Source: Diacronema lutheri (taxonomy: Eukaryota; Haptophyta; Pavlovophyceae; Pavlovales; Pavlovaceae). Taken from it: DNA of 64,000 bases. The translations under genes were made by a program, and so were the position numbers. The stretch is taken from positions 310,001-374,000 of the forward strand of contig JAGTXO010000015.1 in the NCBI GenBank assembly GCA_019448385.1, read 5' to 3'. Shown piece by piece: positions 2,070 to 64,000 of the stretch (its first letter is position 1; the number at the start of each line of letters is the position of its first letter). Below the pieces are notes generated by a model. It was not told the origin of the DNA. It was given only the letters and a program-made list of their open reading frames with translations, and did no database searches.

Positions 2070-5000
2070 TCACCTCGTGACAAACGTCGGCTGCGCGCTG
2101 AGCACATCGTGCGAACCGGCCGTCTGCGTCTCCGCCATGCTGTCTCTGCCCCCACACTCTCCATCGGTCGTGCTGGGATCGGTCGGGTGGCGGCTGCCGA
2201 GCGCATGCGTGGCCTCCGCGCCAAAGCCGTCGGCGGCGAGGCCGACCTCCGTGCATTGCGCGCAGATGTAACGTTCCATCGTCTCCGCTTGCTCGGGCGC
2301 GATCGAGACGCACGCGGAGTGGAACCTGCGGTGGTGGCGGTGGTGGCGGTGGCGGCGGTGGCGGCGGTGGTGGCGGTGGGCGGAGCCGGCGGCGCGCGGT
2401 GCACGTGAGCACCCTCGAGGGGGGGGGGGGGGGGCAGGGGGCTGCGACGTGGGTCGTCGGGCGAGCGCCGCCCTCCCGGCCAGGCGGGGCGAGTTGGGGA
2501 AGTGCGCGGTGCGGTTACCAATTGTCACAGACGTCACAACCCACCATGTGCGTGTTATCGTCACGCCGTCCTCGCGAGCACGAGGGCACACAGACGAGGC
2601 GCGGAGGAGGAGGCTTGTGCGTGAGGTGGTGTAACAGCATCATAGTGGAATACTGGGCGTATCTGTTACGTGTGGTGACACCGGGCGCGGTGACGGGCGC
2701 GGTGACGGGCGGCGAGCGGCAGGTGAACGCGGGTGGCAGAACATGTCGGGGCGCTCAGGGCGCGCGCTGGCGAGGGGATGGGCCGAGATGGGGGGATGGG
2801 CCGAGGTGGGGGGATGGGCCGAGATGGGGGGATGGGCCGAGGTGGGGGGATGGGCCGAGGTGGGGGGATGGGCCGAGGTGGGGGGATGGGCCGAGGTGGG
2901 GGGATGGGCCGTGGTGGGGGGATGGGCCGAGGTGGGGGGATGGGCCGAGGTGGGGGGATGGGCCGAGGTGGGGGGATGGGCCGAGGTGGGGGGATGGGCC
3001 GAGGTGGGGGGATGGGCCGAGGTGGGGGGATGGGCCGAGGTGGGGGGATGGGCCGAGGTGGGGGGATGGGCCGAGCTGGGGGGATGGGCCGAGGTGGGAG
3101 GATGGGCCGAGGTGGGGGGATGGGCCGTGGTGAGTTCCTCTCGGCGCGCGCGCGCCGAAGGTCGCACACACACGCATGCACACTCACCTCTCAGAATTGA
3201 ACTGCCAGTGTGAGAGTTGACAGTGAGAGAGCAGGCCTTCTCGCGAATTGGCAAGCGAGTTGGTCACCTCGGGGTCGAGGTCCGTCTGCGGCGAGCCGCT
3301 GAGCTCGGAAAGCTGCGCGACGAGGAAATTGCGCTTCGAGTGCTGCGCGCGGGGAAGGGAAGGGGGGGGGGGGGGGGGGGGAGCACGTGGGCGGGGCCAG
3401 CGGGATTGGCGGGCACACGGGCGGGTGAGGAGAGGAAGGGACTTTGAGCGCGCGCGCGCTCTCAAGGCACCGCGTGTGCGGCGGTGGCGTCGTCGAAGCG
3501 CAGCGCGCATGGGCCGGTGATCTCGACCAGGGTCGTAACCCGGTGTGGATCCCGTGCGAGCGGGGTCGCAATGAGCGCATGGCGGCGTGTTGCGGTGCAT
3601 GGCGAGGCGAGGCGGGAGGAGGAGGGGGGGGGGGGGGGGGGCAAGCGGCGCGTGCTGCGGGCGGCGAAGCGGGGCGAAAGGGCGCGAATGACGCGCGCGT
3701 GCCTGAATCTCCTGCTGTGCGCGCTGCACCACCGCCTGCGCGTGCAGCTTGTCGAGCTTGGCGCCGCCAACGCCGTTGCCGCCCGACTCACCTGCGCGGT
3801 GATTAGTGGGTGGGTGGGTGGGTGGGTGGGTGGGTGGGTGGGTGGGTGGGTGGGTGGGTGGATGGGTGATTAGTAAGTGGGTGGGTGGGTGAGTGGGTGA
3901 GTGGGTGAGTGGGTGGGTGGGTGGGTGGGTGGATGGGTGATTAGTAAGTGGGTAAGTGGGCAAGTGGGTGGGTGGGTAGGTGATTAGTGGGTGGGTGGGT
4001 GGGTGGGTGGGTGGGTGAGTGGGTGGGTGGGTGAGTGGGTGGGTGGGTGAGTGGGTGGGTGGGTGAGTGGGTGGGTGGGTGAGTGAATGGGTGGCGCGGC
4101 GGTTGAGAAGGCGGCGTGGCTCGCGGGGGGAGGGGAGGGGGGAGGGAGGGGGAGGGAGGGGGGGGGGGGGGGGGGGGGCAAGTGCAGCGCGCGCACTGTG
4201 CTCGTGCTCAATCCGCAGGAGTAATTCGGGAATCGTCGCCGCCCATTGGTCGCCGTGGAACATGGGGATCTCGCGGATTGATCTCATCTCCGCATATATG
4301 TCAGCCATCGATCCTGCGGGGGCAAGGAGAGGGAGGGGGGGGGGGGGGGGGGTCGCCACGAGTCAATTGGCGAGGTGGCTAGTTGGAGGAGGGACGGGGG
4401 AAGGGGAAAGAGGAGAGAGGGGCAGACACACGGGCATGCGCGGCGCGCAGCGCGCGGCGCGCGATGTGCGACGTGGCCCTGCTCACCAAACTTTTTGACA
4501 ATGTCGCGCTCCTTGGCCTTGTCGAGCATTTGCACGTACCTGTCACGGGTCGTAACGGGGTCGTGACGGGGTCGTGACGGGGTCGTGACGGGGTCGTGAC
4601 GGGCGCGCGGCGGTGACGGGCGGCAGTTGCACGGGGCGGTGGGCTCGCTGCGCGCTCGGCGGCGAAGCGCTCGGCGGCGAGCCCGCCCTGCGCGCGCGCG
4701 CGTGTACCATGAGCGCAGCTTGTCACGCTTCATCGGTCGCTTGTGCTGGTCGGGCCGCGCGAAGAAGATGTACTCGTCGCCCACCTTTGGCGGCTCGACC
4801 CAGATGTGTACCCACTTGAAGCCGATGATCCGTACATATCTGCCGGCGAGTACGGGGAGGCACGTGAGCGGGCTCGGTCGTGATGTGAGCGGGAGGCAAG
4901 GGGCGGAAGGCAGCGGGGTAAGGGGGTATGGGCATGGGCATGGGCTTTTCAAAGGGGGGTTCTCAAGGCAATTGGCAGGGAACTCGCACGCGCGTGGCGC

Positions 5001-27735: not shown

Positions 27736-30700
27736 TCATTGGACCCGCATGTGTGGTGCGCAGAGCGGCTCCTCGAGTGCGTCTGCGTCTTCGCGAGCTT
27801 CCGCGCGCGCGCGTACTCTCCGCGCGACTGCCCAGCCGGACGCGACGACGAGCGCGAGCGCGGCGAGCGCGGCGCCGCCCCAGTCGAGTGCGCCCGTCGC
27901 CGACGCGCGGGCCGAGACTGCGGCAGTTCGGCCGCCCGACGCGCCGTCGTGCGCCGCGTCGGACGCTGGTGGGTGCGCGCGGTGAAACACGCGACGAGGC
28001 GACGGGCTGGGCGGGGGCGAGGGCGGCGGACGCGGCGGGACGGGAGGAGGCAGCGGCGGCGACGGCGAGCTGGGCGGACTCGGAGGTCGCGGGCTCGGCG
28101 ACGGCGGCGGGCATGGCGGCGGTGGGCGTGGCGGGTGCGGGCTCGACGACGGCGGCGGGCTCGGCTGTGGCGGGCGCGGCGGCGGCGGCGGGCTGGGCGG
28201 AGGCGGCGGCTTCGGTGGAGGCGGCGGGCTCGGCGGCGGCGGGCCGGGCGAGGGCAGCGGCCGCGGTGGCGGCGAGCGCGGCGGGCCAAACGCCGGCGGG
28301 GGCACCTCGAGCGCCACCTCTGCCGTCGGGTCCTCTGCCAGCACCGCGCGCGCGCCGCTGAGGTCGTCGCGCGCCGGCGGCCACGGCACGGGTGTCTGCG
28401 CGCCGCCTTCGGCCAGCCCGGGCCGTGTCGCCGCCCAGTAGAGCGCGGCGGTGCGGCTGACGCCGAGCATGCCGACGGCGGCCGCGCCAAACGCCGCGGC
28501 AGGCATCGCCACCATCTCATCCCATGCGCCCACTGGGTCGACGACGCCGCGCTCGGCGGCAACGAGCGGTGCCCAGCCATTCACGACGCACGCGTCGCCC
28601 ATCGCCTCGCACGAGCTCGCGGCGGCGGGGTGTGCGCGCGCGACCCAGCGCGGCTGAAGAAGCAACTCGGCAGCGGGCGAGAGCGGAGCAACATGCTGCG
28701 CATGGACGATGGCCGCCTCGCGCCCGTACCGACACGCGCTCGACACGCGCAGCTGCGCGACGGTGCCCGCGAGTTGCGCGCCGGCGGCGAAGGGCGCTGG
28801 GTAGATTGAGCCAGCGCCGCCATCGCCCACGTGCCAGTAAGCGTGCGCCGACGCGAGCTCCGACGCGAGCGCGAGCGATGCGGCGGTAAGCAGCTCCGAA
28901 GCGTTGTATGCGTCGCCTGCACGGACACGGTGTGCGGCGCAGAGGTGGCGCAAGGGCGGCGAGCCAAAGCGCGCGCAGTGGGCTCGCTGCCTGCCGCGCG
29001 CCGCATGCCAGCGGGTGGCACCGTGTATGCACAGCTGGCCCGCGCTCGTACCAAGGAGCTGGAAGGCGGAATAGGCAAAGACCGCTTCCGAGACGCTCTC
29101 CTGCACACGCCCGTCGCGCGCTGGCCGGCCGCCATCGATGCCAAGCCCCGACGACCAGGAGAGACCGGTGAACCAGTCCTGCTCGACGTGGCGGCGGGCG
29201 GCACACGCGACGGGTCGGGCGCACGGCGCAACGCGCGCAACATTGCACAAAAGGCGGCAGTGGCGCGCGCGGCCGCGCAGCGCTGAACACCTTGTGCCGC
29301 CACGGCGTGAAGTATGCGTCCGCGTCCGACGCGCCCGCCGCGTCACGCGCGAGGAGCAGCGCGCCCTCGCGGATTGTCTGGTTTGCCGCCCACGTGGGCA
29401 GGAGCCGCGCGACGACAGCTGCGGCGTACGCGAGGTGGCCAAAATCGGCGAGATGGCGGTCGTAACTTGCCGAGCCGCCCTCCACGACGCCGCTTGAAAG
29501 CGACGGGCAGCGCGCGGCCGGGCCGACATGCTGCCCGCCGCACGCGATCAGCCCGCCCCAGGTGCTGTCGTAAAGTGTGAGGCGAGGAGCGCCCTCGCGC
29601 TCGCCCGCTGCGCCACCACCGCTGCCGCCGCCGCCGCCGCCGCCGCCACCGCCGCCGCCACCGCCGCCCGTCAACCAGCGCTCTACAGCCGGCGCCATCC
29701 GCGTGGCGACGCGCTCTGCCAGCTCGCCCTCGCCCACCTCCGCCGCAATCAGCGCAACCGCAGCGAGGCGCGAGAGCGAGCGAGCGGCGCGCGTGAGGCC
29801 GCTGTATTCAAGCTGCACCAGCGGCGCGCTATCCGCCGCATCTGCACGCGCAGCCGCACGCACCACCGTCTCGTGCTCGCTCGACGCGACGGTGCGGTAC
29901 GCGCGCCACGCCGGCCGCGGCACCGGCATGCGCGTGAGCCAGACCGCACGCCCAGTCGACCACGCGAGATGAGCGGGGCGCGCGCCGCCTCCGCCGGCGC
30001 GCGCCGCGTCCGGCATGCCGCCCTCCTCCGCGCCGCCGCCGCTCGGCCGCGCGGGCGCGGGCGCCAGCGTGAGCATGGCCAACCGCGTGACGCCCATTGG
30101 CGACACGGAGAAGCTTTCGCCGGGCACGGCCTCGAGAAGACCTCCGCGCGCGTGTCCGTGCGCGCTCGCGTCCGCGCCGGCGCCCAGCTTCGGGCCAGCG
30201 GTCGGGCCGGCGCGCTGAGCATGCGGCAGATGGTGCGGCAACAGCGCGAGGAGAAGTCTGGCGCGCGGCGCCGGCGGCGCTGCGCTTGCGAAGAGCAAGT
30301 CCGGCACCGGCGCGTCCGGACCGGCGCCCACTGCGAGCGGGGCCGTTGGAGGCCTGTCGCCAAACGCGCGCACGTGCCACGTGACGACGAGCGCGCCGTC
30401 GCCACCGTCCGCGCTCGGGACGCGCGACGCGTTCAGCGCGCGCCCTCCAAGCGACGCGGCGACCGCCCCCACCGCCGGCGCCGACGTCGCGCGGCGCGTG
30501 CGCGCGGCGCGCACGCTCGCGCCGACTGGAAAGTGGCGCGCGTGCGCGTCGAGCACGCGGCGAAAGCGGTCGACGGTGGGCCCGGCGGGCTGGGCGGCGG
30601 CGCAGTGGAACGGCGAGCGGCCAAACGTGCAGTTGTTCGACATGGCGGCGCGCAGCGCACCCGTGTATGCGCCCGTGCCGACGAGCTCGGTCGACGCGCC

Positions 30701-31405
30701 GCTTGACGAGCACGAGAGCTCGACGGGCGACTCGGCGTACAGCACCCAGCTCTCGTCCGATTCGACAAAGACGAGCTCGAAGACCGAGCCGGTCGCGCGG
30801 CCCGCACACGGCGTGCGGTACCCGTCGACGACGAGCCCGACCATTGGATCGAGCTGCTGGCTCGCCGAGAAGACGATCGTCGCGCGCGCGTACAACGCCG
30901 TCAGATACGGCGAGCCGCGCGCAAGCGGCACGGTGAGTGCGGGCGCGTCGGCAGCGGCGGCGTTGAGCGACCAGCCAAGCGAGACGACCATCGCGTCGTG
31001 CGCGACGACGCGATGCCCGCCGAGCGCCTCGCGCGCGCCGAGGAAGATGTTGAGTACGATCGGGTCGAAGGAGACCGCCACCTCGTCCGCGCTGGCCGGC
31101 TGCGCAAAAGGCAGCGCTGCGTGGAGGCCGGCATTGGCTGCCCAGACGATGTACGGCGAAACAAGCACGCTGGCGTCACTCCCCGTCCCTTCTGCCGCCA
31201 GTGCCAGGTTGATCCACCACGCGCCCGTCGGAAAGGGCCGGCGGACGTGCGCGCCCCAGCGGTCGGATGACGGCGCCTGTTCGCCCACGCGCTCAACGGC
31301 GTCGATACCAACATCGCGCGGGTCAACGCGCGAGAAGGGCGCGTTGCCGTACGAGACGCTCGCCGCGGCGCGCGAGAGCGCGAGCAGCGCCACGCACAGC
31401 CTCAT
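27736..31405 (-). CDS. GH81 endo-1,3-beta-glucanase with proline-rich stalk and membrane anchor
   Basis: Predicted secreted enzyme cutting beta-1,3-glucan (laminarin, chrysolaminarin or callose type). Exons 31405-29291, 29178-29052 and 28916-27736 join in phase, about 1140 residues. A signal peptide MRLCVALLALSRAAAS opens it. GH81 marks: YDRHLADFGHLAYAAAVVA, DWFTGLSWSSGLGIDGG and GRVQESVSEAVFAYSAFQLL; the Asp of the DWF block and the two Glu of QESVSE fit the known catalytic set. After the domain (about residue 960) comes a Pro/Ser-rich stretch like extensin stalks (28020-28290), then one membrane helix WGGAALAALALVVASGWAV and a short basic tail. That is type I topology with the enzyme outside. 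Exon 1 holds a poly-Gly loop. Divergent from the FAD oxidoreductase by 98 bp. Confidence 0.88.
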
Positions 31406-31503
31406 GCCCGGCCGTGCCGCAATGACGTTACACTTTTTGATTTTGTTTGGTAAGCTCGCTCGTCAGTCACGCTGCGCACAACTCGCGCAATTTTCGCCGC
31501 GCC

Positions 31504-32931
31504 ATGGGCACGAGCATGCGTACGGCCGCACTGCTCCTCGCGCACGCGGCGTTGGCGGCGGGCGTGAGCGTGGCGGTGCGGCCGCGCGTCACGGTCGTCG
31601 GTGCGGGTGTCTCCGGCCTTTGCTGCGCGCGCACGCTCCACGCCGCCGGCGTCGACGTCAGCGTCATCGAGCGCGCGGACGGCGTCGGCGGGCGCGTGCG
31701 CTCGGACATCGTCGACGGCTTCATCCTCGACCGCGGCTTTCAGGTGTTCCTCACCGAGTATCCGGAGCCGCGTAGCGTGCTCGATCTTGACGCGCTCGAC
31801 CTCCGCCCCTTCCTACCCGGCGCGCTCGTCCAGCTCGGCGCCGAGCGCCACCTCGTCGCCGACCCGTTCCGTCGGCCGCAAGACTTGCTGCGCGGCGCGC
31901 TTGCGCCAGTCGGCTCGCTGGTCGACAAGGCGCGCGTCGCGCTGTTTGCGGTGCTGCAGTTCCTCCAGCCCGTCGATGCAATCTTTGCCAAGCCGCCGCG
32001 CTCGACGCTCGCCTTCTTGCGCGCCGAGCTCGCGGTCTCGGATGTGATGATCGAGCGCTTCTTCCGCCCCTTCTACCAGGGCATCTTCCTTGCGCCGCTC
32101 GACGAGCAGGACGCGCGCATGTTCGAGTTCGTCTTCAAGATGTTCACCCTCGGCGTCGCCGCGCTCCCCGCCAAAGGCCTCGGCGAGGTGCCCAAGCAGC
32201 TCGCGCGCGCGCTTCCGGAGGACACGGTACGCACGCGCACGCTCGTGCTCGGCGTGAGCGCCACATCCGTGCGCGTCGCGGAGGTGGGCGCGGAGAAGGC
32301 GGAGGGCGCGCGCGAACCGGACGATCACACGCTCGAGAGCGACGCGGTCGTCCTCGCCGTCGATCGCCCCGCGCTCGCGGCGATCGACGGCGCGCACGGC
32401 GCCGCCGGCACCGACGGCGAGCGCTCGAGCACCGCGATCTACTTCGCGATCGACGGGCCGCCGCCGATCGCCGAGCCAATCCTCGTGCTCAACGGCGAGT
32501 GCGGCCGCGTCGCGCCCGGCGCGTCGAGCGCCGTCCTCAACAACGTGTGCTTCCCGAGCTCGGTCGCGTCATCGTACGCGCCAGCCGGCAAGGCGCTTGC
32601 GTCATGCACCGTCGTCGGCGACCCGGCGGTGACGGACGCCGAGCTCGAGCGCGCGGTGCGCGAGCAGCTCGGCCGTTGGTTTGGCGCCGAGCGCGTTGCG
32701 GCGTGGCGCCACCTGCGCACGTACCGCGTGCGATATGCCCAACCGACGCAGCTCGGCGCGCGCGGAGGATTCGACTGGCCCGCGCGGCTCGACGGCGGGC
32801 TTTACCGGTGCGGCGACCACACGTCGTCGCCCACGCTGAATGGCGCGATGGCCAGCGGCCGCCGCGCCGCCGAGGCCGTGCTCGAGGACCTGCGCGCGCG
32901 CGGGCGGCTCGCCGCGTCGGGCCGAGCCTAG
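31504..32931 (+). CDS. FAD-dependent amine oxidase/desaturase-like oxidoreductase
   Basis: Single exon, 475 residues from the ATG at 31504; earlier in-frame codons are only TTG/GTG type and less likely. The Rossmann FAD motif is VTVVGAGVSGLCCARTLHAA, followed by IERADGVGGRVRSD, which is the amine oxidase/phytoene desaturase GG motif. LDRGFQVFLTEYPE and the C-terminal FAD-contact GLYRCGDHTSSPTLNGAM (dinucleotide site 2) agree. It resembles the plastid/cyanobacterial NAD(P)/FAD oxidoreductase group rather than a named desaturase. A hydrophobic leader MRTAALLLAHAALAAGVSVA precedes the fold, which could be a signal peptide for plastid or secretory routing. Substrate unknown. Confidence 0.85.
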   Translation: MGTSMRTAALLLAHAALAAGVSVAVRPRVTVVGAGVSGLCCARTLHAAGVDVSVIERADGVGGRVRSDIVDGFILDRGFQVFLTEYPEPRSVLDLDALDLRPFLPGALVQLGAERHLVADPFRRPQDLLRGALAPVGSLVDKARVALFAVLQFLQPVDAIFAKPPRSTLAFLRAELAVSDVMIERFFRPFYQGIFLAPLDEQDARMFEFVFKMFTLGVAALPAKGLGEVPKQLARALPEDTVRTRTLVLGVSATSVRVAEVGAEKAEGAREPDDHTLESDAVVLAVDRPALAAIDGAHGAAGTDGERSSTAIYFAIDGPPPIAEPILVLNGECGRVAPGASSAVLNNVCFPSSVASSYAPAGKALASCTVVGDPAVTDAELERAVREQLGRWFGAERVAAWRHLRTYRVRYAQPTQLGARGGFDWPARLDGGLYRCGDHTSSPTLNGAMASGRRAAEAVLEDLRARGRLAASGRA

Positions 32932-33061: not shown

Positions 33062-36000
33062 ATGCGGCGTGCGGAGCACACGTGCGCGCCGTCGAGGCTC
33101 GCGTGCGCGCCGTTGCGGCTCGCGCGTCCTCCATTGCGGGTTGCGAGGCGGCAAGAGCAGCTGTCGCTCGTCTTGATCGCGGATCCCGGGCCAGATCCGG
33201 ACGACGTCAAGGCCATCCTGGTCGCCGGGGTACTACATCGCCTCGGTGCCATCCGCTTCGCCGCCCTCGTCGCCAACGGCGGCGGGCAGGCGCTCCGCCG
33301 AGCGCAGCTCGCGCGCTGCGTCCTGGTCCACGTTGGCGTTGCGGACGTGCCCGTGGGTATCGGCTCGGAGGGTAAGGCGTACGAGGCGCAGCCGCACGAG
33401 TACGCGCTCGAGGGCGTGGACCAAGTCCCGCGCGCCGCGCTCGACGACGGCCACGCGCTGCTGCTGCGGACGTTGCGCGCCGCACCGCCGAGCTCGCTCA
33501 CGGTCTGTTGCATCTCGTCGCTGCGCGACTTTGCAGACGTAATCGCGGCGGAGCCGACGCTTGTGCTCGCAAAGGTGGTGCGGCTGGTCGTGCAGGGCGG
33601 CTTGCAGCGCGTTGACGATGCCTCGCCGTGGCGGCCCGACTCGTCGGTCAACAACGACTTTGACGCGGCCGCGGCCGACGCAGTCTACACGTTTGCACTC
33701 GCGCGTGGGCTGCCGCTTACCGTTGTCTCGCGCTTTGCGGTGCCAATGCTGCCGATGCAGCTCGCGCGCTCCTTCGCCGAGCGCACTGCCAACCCGCTGC
33801 TTCGCTACCTCGCGTCCGCGCAGTTCCTCGGCCTGGAGGGGCTGTGGCGCAAGCTGTGCGAGGGTAAACTGCCCGCACGCTGCTCCAAGCAGTGGTACTT
33901 TGAGACGTTTTGCGGCGTCAGCGAGGCGCAGTTTGCACGCGGCCGCTTCGACGAGCTGGGGCCAGGCGACAGGATCCGCCAGCACCTCGACGGATACGTC
34001 AAACCGTACGGCGCGCGCGCGCGCGCGCGTGCACCCGATGCCCAGCCACGTGGCGCCGCGCGCACGTGTGCGATTGCCCACGCGCGCGCCGCGCCGCCGC
34101 GCGCCTGCGATGCGCCGCGCAGCTACGACGTGGTCGCGCTCATGACCGCGCTGCCGCAGACGTGTGCGCTCTTTGGCGCCGGCCGACCTGTCGGCATCGT
34201 CGGCGTCGCGCCGCTCCGCGCCGGCGCCGCACACCAGCTCCTCCTCACGGCCGAGGACGCGATCGACGTGAGCCACGTGATCCGGCTGTTGCGCGATGCG
34301 TACCACGAGACCATCGCCGCGGCGCGCGAGCGCGAGCTCGAGACCTTGCTCCAGCGGACGCGCGCGCCGGGCGTGGCGCGCACGGCGCGGCCGCCCAACG
34401 ACGCGCGCCCGCCGCTCCTCCAGCGCGCCGCAATGGGCGGCGTACGGATTGCGCCCGCGCGCCCCAACGCGTCCGTCGCGCCGTTGGGCGCTGCAGAGGC
34501 GAGCGCGCGGCCGTTGGCGAGTGGTGCCGACACCGCGACCGCCGCCGCCTCGTCGCCGTCCGAGCACAGCTTGTGCTCATCGCTGCGCGACGAGCCGTGC
34601 GCGCCGCGTGCTGACGACGACGCCAGTGCGCGTGCGACCGATGCTCGGCCGGAGACCCGTGGCGCGCGAAAGAATGGCGGGCTATTGGAGTGGCAGGCGT
34701 TCGCGGATGGCAGCCGTCGCCGCGCGCCGCACAGTCTCGCGGCGCTTACGCACGTTGTCTCGCACCACGCGCCGGCGGCGGCGCGACGCTCGGACGACGA
34801 AGCGGACGAGCCGCCCGACGCGTTCTACGCGCAAGAGGCTCGAGGATTTTACAGCCGCGAGCGGCTGCGCGACGCCGCGGCCGAGCCGAGCGTGTGCGCA
34901 CGAACCCGTGCGCCCACGGCGGGCACGCCGACGGTCGGCGTTCTCAGCGAAGCGGCGATTGCTCGCATGCTCACGCGTGGCGTGCAGCAGGCAATGGCGC
35001 GGCAGGCGGCGACGACGCGCACGCTCGGCATCGGCGGCTTCGGTGCGGCCTTCGCGTTGGTCGCGCTCGTGCTTGCCGCTCGGAGCGATCCCGTCGCACC
35101 GGACCGCAGCGTCTTTGCGCTTGCCCTGAGCCGGATGTGCCACGTCGCCGCAGGCGTCGCGACGGCGCTCGCGTTGCTCGCGCTCCACCCGACGTGCGCC
35201 AAGCGCGCGCACGTGCGCGCCGCGCTGCTCGCGCTCGCGCTCGTTCACACCGGCCTCGCCGCCGACCGTTGCGTCGAGGCGCGCGCGCTCGCGCGGCTGG
35301 CCGCATCGACGCACGCACGCGCAAGCCTCGCGCTCGCGATCGCCACCGGCGCACTGCTCGGCGTGAGCGCATTGCTGCTGCTCGGCACGTGCGCGCTCGC
35401 GCGGCGTGCGTCAAACCGCGCCGTCTCACGCCCGTTGTGGCGGTGGCGGTGGCCGAGCGCGGCGAGCGTCGGCGCGTTTGTCGTGGCCGCGTGGCGCGCG
35501 TTTGCGCGCGCGCAGCTCGTGCAAGCCCTCACGCTGCTCACGCAGCTCGCGCTGGATGCGACGGTGACGCCAACGGGCGGGCTGCGCGGCGCGCACGCGG
35601 TGCTTACGCCCCTGAGCGCGCTCGACGCGCTCGTCAAGCTTCTGCTCGGCGCGCTCGCGCTCACGCCGCACGCGCACAGGCGCGCGCAGCGCGCGCTGAG
35701 CCGCGCGCTGCCGGTGAACGCGCGCGCGCACGCGCCGCTCGCCGCGCTCCTCGGCTTCGGCACGTCCGTCGTGCACGCGCCCGTCGAGCTCGTCGCCGAG
35801 GCGCTGCGCTCATTTGCGCCCGTCGAGCTCGATGACGATGCTTTTGCCGCGCTCGACGCGAAGAATTTTGGGCCTGCGCCCGGCGCGCCGGCGGACGCCG
35901 AGCGCGTGGGCGCGGACGCGCCCCCGGCGGTCGAGGCGTGGCGCGCTTGTGCGCCCGCGCCGCTCGACGAGATTGCAACAGTGGCAACGCCGGCGCTTGC

Positions 36001-37150
36001 GCTCGATCTTTGCGTCGCGGCCGCGGCGACGACCGCGCACGCAGCGCCCGCGGCCCGCGCGCACAGCGCAGCTGGGCGCTGCATCGTTACGCCGTGGCTG
36101 CGCGAGCGCGCATGCGCGGTCGTCGTCGCGGTCGCGCCGTCAAGCCCGATCGAGCTGCGGTCCGAGGCGAGCAGCCCGCAGCATACGGGCGCCGGCGCGG
36201 CGGTGTGGCACAGGAGCGCATCCGTGGCGCCAGCACCTGCCGTCTCGCCGCTTCGCCGCCTCGGTGGCTCATTCTTCGGCGTCGATAAGGGCCGGCACGG
36301 CGAGCACGACGCGTGCGGTCCGTTTGCGCCGCGCCAGCTGCGCGCGTCGCCCAGCGGCGCGCCGTGCGGCAGCTGGGACGCGCATCGCACACACAGCCGG
36401 AGCGCTTCCGTCGAAGACCTGCTGCGCGCGCCGGCCAAGCGACTCAACGCCGCGTCGCCCACTCATGGCGCGGCGCTCTCGCCTGTCGTGCCTCGCGCCG
36501 CGCGCTACGAGCCGCGACTAAAGCGCACCTTCAGCGCGCCGCTCGTGCCCGCGGCCGCCGATTGCTTCGTCGTGCATGCAGAGGCCGGCAGTCCGGACGA
36601 GCAGGGCGCCATCGCGGCCGCGCTACGCGAATGGGCGCGCGCGTTTGCGCAGCGTGAGGGGCGGCTGCCGACAGTCTGGCTCGACGCGCTGAGCGCCGAT
36701 CCGCTGCTTAGTCCGAGTGAGCAGCTTGCGCACATGCCCGTGTACGTGGCGCGCAGCGCGCGGCTGCTGCTGCTATGCGGGCCGTCGATCGTCGACAGTG
36801 TGCGCACCGTCGCGCAGCTGTACGCCTGGCGTGCAAGCGGCGGGCTCATGGACCGTGTCGAGTGCACTCTCGTCGCGCCGCGCGGCACGGACGACAGCGC
36901 GCGACAGGCGCGCTGGCGCTCAACCATCGCGGCGTTCGACACGTTCCACGCTACGGACGCGCAGCAGCTGTCGAGCCACGCCGATGAGGCGCGGCGAATT
37001 GCCCTCGCGGTCGAGATCGGCACCATCGCGCACATCAACGAGACGATCCGCGCGTTCATGACGCCCGTGCAGCGCGCTGCGGCCGCCGACGCACTCGGTT
37101 GCGCGTTCCTGACACCCGCTGCTGAGGAAACATGCCGAGCGTGGACATGA
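33062..37150 (+). CDS. Nucleoside hydrolase-like / multi-TM / TIR-like fusion protein
   Basis: Two exons, 33062-34005 and 34120-37150, about 1324 residues; the intron is 114 nt, in frame and stop-free. Residues about 35-390 match inosine-uridine nucleoside hydrolases: VLIADPGPDPDDVKAILVA (the calcium-binding Asp set, with two extra residues), LVANGGGQALRRAQLARCV, VPVGIGSEGKAYEA, VNNDFDAAAADAVYTFA and YDVVALMTALP with the late Asp. These cleave the N-glycosidic bond of nucleosides. A low-complexity linker follows, then four to five hydrophobic segments (about 612-822). The last 200 residues read DCFVVHAE...LPTVWLDALSADP...MPVYVARSARLLLLCGPS, which resembles the TIR-like domains common in algal and oomycete membrane proteins, though key positions have drifted. 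The start at 33062 is the first ATG after the upstream gene. Domain naming is by motif memory; the C-terminal call is the weaker one. Confidence 0.7.
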   Translation: MRRAEHTCAPSRLACAPLRLARPPLRVARRQEQLSLVLIADPGPDPDDVKAILVAGVLHRLGAIRFAALVANGGGQALRRAQLARCVLVHVGVADVPVGIGSEGKAYEAQPHEYALEGVDQVPRAALDDGHALLLRTLRAAPPSSLTVCCISSLRDFADVIAAEPTLVLAKVVRLVVQGGLQRVDDASPWRPDSSVNNDFDAAAADAVYTFALARGLPLTVVSRFAVPMLPMQLARSFAERTANPLLRYLASAQFLGLEGLWRKLCEGKLPARCSKQWYFETFCGVSEAQFARGRFDELGPGDRIRQHLDGYVKPYGARARARAPDAQPRGAARTCAIAHARAAPPRACDAPRSYDVVALMTALPQTCALFGAGRPVGIVGVAPLRAGAAHQLLLTAEDAIDVSHVIRLLRDAYHETIAAARERELETLLQRTRAPGVARTARPPNDARPPLLQRAAMGGVRIAPARPNASVAPLGAAEASARPLASGADTATAAASSPSEHSLCSSLRDEPCAPRADDDASARATDARPETRGARKNGGLLEWQAFADGSRRRAPHSLAALTHVVSHHAPAAARRSDDEADEPPDAFYAQEARGFYSRERLRDAAAEPSVCARTRAPTAGTPTVGVLSEAAIARMLTRGVQQAMARQAATTRTLGIGGFGAAFALVALVLAARSDPVAPDRSVFALALSRMCHVAAGVATALALLALHPTCAKRAHVRAALLALALVHTGLAADRCVEARALARLAASTHARASLALAIATGALLGVSALLLLGTCALARRASNRAVSRPLWRWRWPSAASVGAFVVAAWRAFARAQLVQALTLLTQLALDATVTPTGGLRGAHAVLTPLSALDALVKLLLGALALTPHAHRRAQRALSRALPVNARAHAPLAALLGFGTSVVHAPVELVAEALRSFAPVELDDDAFAALDAKNFGPAPGAPADAERVGADAPPAVEAWRACAPAPLDEIATVATPALALDLCVAAAATTAHAAPAARAHSAAGRCIVTPWLRERACAVVVAVAPSSPIELRSEASSPQHTGAGAAVWHRSASVAPAPAVSPLRRLGGSFFGVDKGRHGEHDACGPFAPRQLRASPSGAPCGSWDAHRTHSRSASVEDLLRAPAKRLNAASPTHGAALSPVVPRAARYEPRLKRTFSAPLVPAAADCFVVHAEAGSPDEQGAIAAALREWARAFAQREGRLPTVWLDALSADPLLSPSEQLAHMPVYVARSARLLLLCGPSIVDSVRTVAQLYAWRASGGLMDRVECTLVAPRGTDDSARQARWRSTIAAFDTFHATDAQQLSSHADEARRIALAVEIGTIAHINETIRAFMTPVQRAAAADALGCAFLTPAAEETCRAWT

Positions 37151-63707: not shown

Positions 63708-64000
63708 ATGGCGAGGGAGTTCAACCTGGGCAACCGCTACCATGAGGGCGAGGGCGTGCCGCAGGACCAGGCGGAGGCCGTGCGCCTCTACCGCCTCGCT
63801 GCCGAGCAGAAGCATGCCGGCGCGCAGTGCACCCTGGGCATGTGCTACCGAAAGGGCGAGGGCGTGCCGCAGGACTGGGCGGAGGCTGCGCGCCTCTTCC
63901 GCCTCGCCGCCGAGCAGAAGCATGCCGGCGCGCAGTGCAACTTGGGCGTCTGCTACGAGAGGGGCGAGGGCGTACCGCAGGACCAGGCGGAGGCCGTGCG
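63708..64000 (+). CDS. Sel1-repeat protein, 3' partial (runs off the window)
   Basis: From ATG at 63708 the frame stays open to the edge: MAREFNLGNRYHEGEGVPQD, QAEAVRLYRLAAEQKHAGAQ, then CTLGMCYRKGEGVPQD and so on. These are near-identical 36-residue Sel1 repeats encoded by 108-nt tandem copies; nucleotide identity between neighbouring copies is high (few differences), pointing to recent duplication. Start codon choice: an ATG at 63671 is out of frame. The upstream AT-rich leader (63640-63690) is a likely promoter. Sel1 repeat proteins of this type are abundant in algae and some giant viruses. Full length and membrane anchor are unknown because the gene continues to the right. Confidence 0.82.
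   Translation, partial: MAREFNLGNRYHEGEGVPQDQAEAVRLYRLAAEQKHAGAQCTLGMCYRKGEGVPQDWAEAARLFRLAAEQKHAGAQCNLGVCYERGEGVPQDQAEAV

Follow-up and report, generated by a model that had tools for sequence, protein, structure and literature searches.

A HopQ1/XopQ-like hydrolase domain and a predicted TIR-fold domain joined through a membrane block in a gene family of Diacronema lutheri

What kind of protein is encoded at positions 33062-37150 of the 64,000-nucleotide stretch of Diacronema lutheri DNA considered here (the window), where a nucleoside-hydrolase-like part, a group of hydrophobic segments and a TIR-like part follow one another? An earlier note, made from the sequence letters, had described them as a single gene, and the motifs quoted there do all sit in a single forward frame, 33062-37150, with an architecture that is found again at 66 of 77 loci of the genome. 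The gene can be divided as follows.

33062-37150, forward strand: whole gene, 1323 residues once one intron is removed; the end includes the stop codon
33152-34005, forward strand: HopQ1/XopQ-like nucleoside-hydrolase-like domain, exon 1 part, from PF01156 and XopQ chain matches
33182-33205, forward strand: calcium-site motif DPGPDPDD, residues 41-48, of the form DXXXDXDD (as the motif is defined in passages of PMC6019455 and PMC11685791)
33650-33664, forward strand: NNDFD, residues 197-201, in which NN is conserved in 19 of 20 aligned genes
34006-34122, forward strand: in-frame GT-AG intron of 117 nt, from paralog comparison
34123-34336, forward strand: end of the hydrolase-like domain with Tyr316-Asp317 of KPYDVVAL, from paralog comparison
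34337-35017, forward strand: linker 1, weakly conserved in the paralog alignment
35018-35662, forward strand: membrane block, with four segments that exceed the hydropathy cut and two that are weaker, from hydropathy and the model of paralog L011
35663-36553, forward strand: linker 2, weakly conserved, with an Ala-rich hydrophobic stretch at residues 932-950, from alignment and hydropathy
36554-37096, forward strand: predicted TIR-fold domain, model residues 24-204
36815-36817, forward strand: Gln1213, aligned with the catalytic Glu of TIR enzymes, in a helix of model residues 106-117, from alignment and model

The family in the genome

The genome scans cover the 43,492,796-bp, 103-contig assembly and gave 120 matches for the C-terminal domain and 130 for the N-terminal one, which merge into 113 and 77 loci, respectively. 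Of the 77 hydrolase-like loci, 66 are followed on their own strand by a TIR-like locus within 7.5 kb, 63 of them within 3.5 kb. As controls, the opposite strand downstream gave no pairs and the same strand upstream gave 10, as tandem arrays would give. The numbers of loci and pairs are the same whether 17 small exon rows among the 130 matches are kept or excluded (the controls were counted with these rows excluded), and pairing by Pfam matches only gives 33 of 41. Because the domain order recurs at 66 of the 77 loci, the combination is confirmed to be more than chance. Both domains lie in a single open frame in five paralogs (L011, L015, L016, L020 and L024), and in a set of 20 genes the distances calculated for one domain co-vary with those for the other (Mantel r 0.72, a value that none of 2000 permutations reached). 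The gene L014 is paired only via the profile and stands outside the 66.

There are also loci in which the two domains are found apart. TIR-like loci with no hydrolase partner number 47, and the hydrolase-like loci L044, L046, L047 and L048 have no TIR match within the stretch fetched. A second architecture is seen in the unpaired L009 (2631-5759) and L045 (1118-4999), where the HopQ1-like domain and WD40 repeats share one frame. One of the 77 loci, C32:276795, has internal stops and overlaps the best Pfam PF01156 match of the genome, so that a nucleoside hydrolase of the ordinary kind may lie here. Contig C34 holds 15 of the 77 hydrolase-like loci between ca 103 and 592 kb. Within the frame of L046 (160-3564) the hydrolase-like profile has another, weaker match that starts at residue 935 and may be a degenerate repeat.

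The ratio of nonsynonymous to synonymous substitution (dN/dS) was calculated by a method that ignores the strong GC bias, so that only comparisons within a gene are to be trusted. For three pairs of genes it is 0.19, 0.19 and 0.30 in the hydrolase domain, 0.32, 0.30 and 0.52 in the TIR domain, 0.46-0.87 in the linkers and 0.51, 0.88 and 1.70 in the membrane block. In the C34 cluster the medians are 0.54 for the TIR domain and 0.49 for the membrane block (26 of 28 pairs, two near-identical pairs being excluded). Positive selection was considered for the membrane block and dropped, the value of 1.70 being confined to L011/L015, against 0.51 and 0.88 elsewhere and the C34 median.

The two end domains

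Pfam PF01156 (IU_nuc_hydro) matches residues 41-224 of the window protein with an E-value of 2.3e-8, the 34.5 bits being barely above the cut-off of 34.2, and with 2.3e-9 when only 33062-34003 is translated. XopQ chains among the solved structures align to residues 34-286 (phmmer, E 6.5e-22). The best phmmer matches are 4kl0, 4p5f and 7jlu (E 6.5e-22 to 1.5e-21), and the best classical nucleoside hydrolase reaches 2.9e-6; 4kl0, which bears the title XOO4466, we take to be XopQ, a Xanthomonas effector of the kind that plant-associated bacteria deliver into plant cells. Foldseek, started from the model of paralog L011, finds XopQ chains at E 1.2e-15 to 2.9e-12, 4p5f among them, and classical enzymes at 6.8e-8 or weaker.

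According to passages of PMC6019455 and PMC11685791, the motif DXXXDXDD marks HopQ1-like proteins, whereas the classical calcium motif is DXDXXXDD. The DPGPDPDD of the window copy fits the former and not the latter. Judged by this motif and by its best match to XopQ, with the solved XopQ entries as the standard of comparison, the domain is HopQ1-like and not a classical nucleoside hydrolase. The nucleoside hydrolase proposed in the earlier note thus stands as far as the PF01156 match goes, but not as an enzyme of the classical kind.

Over the 20 aligned genes, DXXXDXDD fits 15, and KPYD or KPFD is present in 18. The exceptions at the calcium site are L010 and L023, which look degenerate, and L016, L028 and L029, where the motif is incomplete or different, perhaps due to introns. 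Elsewhere in the genome, L002 has a PF01156 match with the classical calcium motif. Viral contigs gave no relative of the hydrolase-like domain of the window in a search with this single protein, which reaches close relatives only.

At the other end of the protein, the C-terminal block has the TIR fold in the structure model, and it is by structure alone, not by sequence profiles, that this fold is revealed. The TIR-like C-terminus had been suggested from short motifs; the modelling upheld it, and a check for an alternative fold did not overturn it. The profile searches proposed at the same time succeeded for IU_nuc_hydro, but no Pfam TIR model matches the window copy. For 28 members (set A1), Pfam TIR_2 matches two (best E 0.055) and HET also two, with the better E-value of 0.0052. 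The TIR part alone gave nothing useful with Pfam and phmmer, nor did a profile of the 28 members against the PDB sequences, and a TIR_2 scan of the genome gave seven matches, none inside the window gene. For the TIR domain of L033, no relative was found in viral contigs or in bacterial and archaeal genomes by single-protein scans, which reach close relatives only.

In TIR enzymes a glutamate in helix alpha-C is the catalytic residue at the position of Gln1213. Over 39 rows paired with a HopQ1-like protein (HLP) domain, this position holds Glu in 17, Gln in 10, His in seven, Leu in three and Asp in two, and WCxxE is complete in five; these rows are the loci that happened to be fetched and include near-identical C34 copies, so that the counts are not independent. 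All but L014 of the 39 are among the pairs of the genome scan. The two TIR rows with no hydrolase partner both carry Glu.

Some further features of individual TIR domains were observed. At the catalytic position, eight of ten TIR rows read from C34 have His or Gln (L035, L036, L049-L054), and both rows of L021 have Glu. The TIR match is divided by an insertion of 36-129 residues in L019, L021, L025, L026, L027 and L034, and is undivided in the window. L037 (225-1940) and L038 (3-2210) are TIR-like with no hydrolase partner, show FVSHSW and KACIEQ, respectively, and keep an intact WCxxE; neither has a Pfam match above the cut-off.

Gene model and membrane block

The listed open reading frame begins at 32840, within the upstream amine-oxidase frame at 31447-32931. 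The ATG at 33062 is the more likely start, because the longer frame from 32840 overlaps this flavin amine-oxidase frame, which ends at 32931. The intron that had been suspected is supported by paralog comparison. The segment 34006-34122 interrupts the last hydrolase motif, and its excision gives KPYDVVAL and restores VKPYDVVALM; KP(Y/F)DV is unbroken in seven paralogs (L011, L015, L024, L020, L016, L018 and L022), and L012 has a frame change at the same site.

Between the end domains, five segments lie above the KD-19 cut of 1.6 by which membrane segments were called, namely 616-634, 656-674, 717-735, 808-826 and 932-950. This agrees with the four to five helices expected from the earlier reading, the last segment being doubtful: 932-950 is less likely to be a helix because it is located in the Ala-rich linker. 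Inspection by eye adds two less hydrophobic stretches, 679-698 and 760-792, and counting both would give six helices in the block. Six long helices are also present in the low-confidence model of L011, whose full-length quality is weak overall (mean pLDDT 56.8, pTM 0.42). In the hydropathy scan of 15 paralog frames, 14 have four to six such segments in this region and L013 has three. With about six helices, we infer that both end domains would be on one face of the membrane, probably the cytosolic one. In L020, membrane-block sequence occurs a second time in the frame, ahead of the hydrolase domain (2768-3100), likely a trace of tandem duplication.

Elsewhere in the window, a glycosyl hydrolase family 81 gene lies at 28520-31405 on the reverse strand, and a 108-bp tandem repeat at 63718-64000 has a unit that reads like what we take to be a Sel1-type repeat.

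Readings of the combination

The computation gives the domain order, the folds, the retained hydrolase motifs and the size of the family. As to function, we tentatively suggest a large family of D. lutheri membrane proteins in which a HopQ1/XopQ-like hydrolase and a TIR domain, joined via the membrane block, would carry out a TIR signalling that erases or reads its own signal. A trigger would be sensed and the TIR domains of the family would associate on the membrane. Copies with an intact WCxxE could then use NAD or RNA to produce a nucleotide signal, either of the ADP-ribose type or as 2',3'-cyclic nucleotides. The calcium-dependent hydrolase domain would cleave or bind this product, such that an eraser or reader of the signal would be built into each complex. 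Copies with Gln in place of Glu, like that of the window, might be docking subunits supplying hydrolase activity; in the window copy the TIR is more likely a docking part, the hydrolase part retaining its motifs.

ADP-ribose can be made by TIR enzymes. The title of entry 4p5f describes XopQ with ADP-ribose bound, and XopQ is reported in parts of PMC11685791 and PMC9963460 to hydrolyse 2',3'-cAMP/cGMP; a passage in one of these two papers, citing work on plant TIR domains, suggests that bacteria thereby remove signals of a plant receptor class. The fusion of a XopQ-like domain to a TIR domain therefore suggests a writer that shares one membrane scaffold with an eraser or reader. A putative role in defence would be the most likely setting, given the size of the family and the TIR fold. 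The narrower version, a self-contained family of nucleotide-signalling immune receptors in which the TIR domain would write, at the membrane, a signal derived from NAD or RNA that the fused HopQ1/XopQ-like domain would erase or read, we regard as doubtful. The membrane-tethered sensor or nucleotide-metabolism effector of the earlier note remains a plausible candidate role.

Several points weigh against the proposed signalling. The window TIR has Gln1213 for the catalytic Glu and is also without the WC pair, and the notion that it cuts NAD, as TIR domains often do, becomes doubtful for this copy. In the 39 non-independent paired rows, Glu is missing from 22 and the full WCxxE from 34, and TIR catalysis can therefore not be general across the family. 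The identity between XopQ and the modelled paralog L011 is 23-25%, and the membrane part of its model is of low confidence. Finally, with an odd number of helices the two end domains would lie on different sides of the membrane.

A different possibility, which we likewise find rather questionable, is that the family consists of ligand receptors. A non-catalytic hydrolase-like domain would bind a nucleotide of the ADP-ribose type or a pathogen protein, leading to clustering of the TIR domains and a response via active TIR partners. Such a role would suit the size of the family, the crystallisation of XopQ with ADP-ribose (4p5f title), the binding of XopQ by the TIR-NLR Roq1 (7jlu title) and the inactivity of HopQ1 on standard substrates noted in a section of PMC6019455. 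However, the calcium-site motifs are mostly retained (15 of 20), which is compatible with catalysis as well as with binding, and the slow evolution of the domain (dN/dS 0.19-0.30) is unlike that of a surface tracking a pathogen.

It is unlikely that the proteins serve membrane-bound nucleoside or nucleotide salvage, with a metabolic hydrolase that the TIR domain, as a docking module, would only cluster. The mostly retained hydrolase motifs and the slower evolution of this domain than of the rest in the three pairs would fit, as would the loss of the TIR glutamate in those 22 copies, but the motif is DXXXDXDD instead of the classical DXDXXXDD, 66 is a high copy number for a housekeeping enzyme, and a match with the classical motif, L002, is also in the genome. 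That the two parts are separate proteins from neighbouring genes, or that their joining is an artefact produced by GC-rich open frames, is very improbable: long open frames are indeed common across the window (the longest has 1669 codons), an in-frame stop separates the parts in L017 and another lies close to the TIR start in L018, but the five single-frame paralogs, the order and spacing recurring at 66 of 77 loci and the co-varying distances all speak against it.

Returning to the proposed eraser or reader signalling, both parts have counterparts in known systems. The HLPs (HopQ1, XopQ and homologs in bacteria, fungi, mosses and algae) form a group of their own within the nucleoside hydrolase superfamily and share DXXXDXDD with the window protein, whose best solved match is XopQ. 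Algal members are in print, with Emiliania huxleyi included in the relevant passage of PMC6019455; the D. lutheri domain differs in sitting in a membrane protein with a TIR domain and in having 77 loci in one genome. The words 'fused' and 'transmembrane' do not occur in the main text of that paper. Roq1, a plant TIR-NLR, and its ligand XopQ are likewise a TIR protein acting with a XopQ fold (7jlu and 7jlx titles), but these are separate proteins of two organisms, whereas in D. lutheri there is a single chain, in which a Pfam search up to E 1 turned up neither NB-ARC nor LRR. The plant, animal and bacterial TIR enzymes RPP1, RUN1, SARM1 and SPARTA TIR are 6-11% identical to the window TIR over aligned residues, and differ from the window copy with its Gln for the catalytic Glu and no Pfam TIR match. 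As described in a portion of PMC13142454, Dictyostelium TirC is also a membrane-tethered TIR protein of a eukaryotic microbe, but it has one N-terminal helix, is described with no hydrolase domain and has a close relative in bacteria, TIR-STING.

The same portion of this preprint, an atlas of eukaryotic TIR domains, names several uncharacterised eukaryote-only clades and contains no words beginning with 'hapt', no 'Diacronema' and no 'nucleoside'; 'nucleoside' and 'TIR' are absent from the D. lutheri genome paper (PMC8379373). The fusion was not found in searches of the open-access literature, and an unlisted or subscription paper may exist. As far as that literature goes, both parts are known, and their joining and expansion are new.

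What the fusion would mean concerns first the HopQ1/XopQ substrate, on which passages of PMC6019455, PMC11685791 and PMC9963460 differ, naming standard substrates, purine metabolism, cytokinin signalling and 2',3'-cyclic nucleotides. An action of the HopQ1/XopQ group on TIR-related nucleotides would gain independent evidence from a natural fusion at about 66 loci, and the D. lutheri domain is a source of a non-pathogen protein for studying this activity. The fusion would offer a direct route to testing how TIR signals are switched off, and it suggests that a haptophyte may have a large family of candidate receptors whose TIR domains are missed by Pfam. If a TIR writer is indeed coupled here to an eraser or reader, effectors of the XopQ group would be the free-standing form of an activity by which some eukaryotes govern their own TIR signals.

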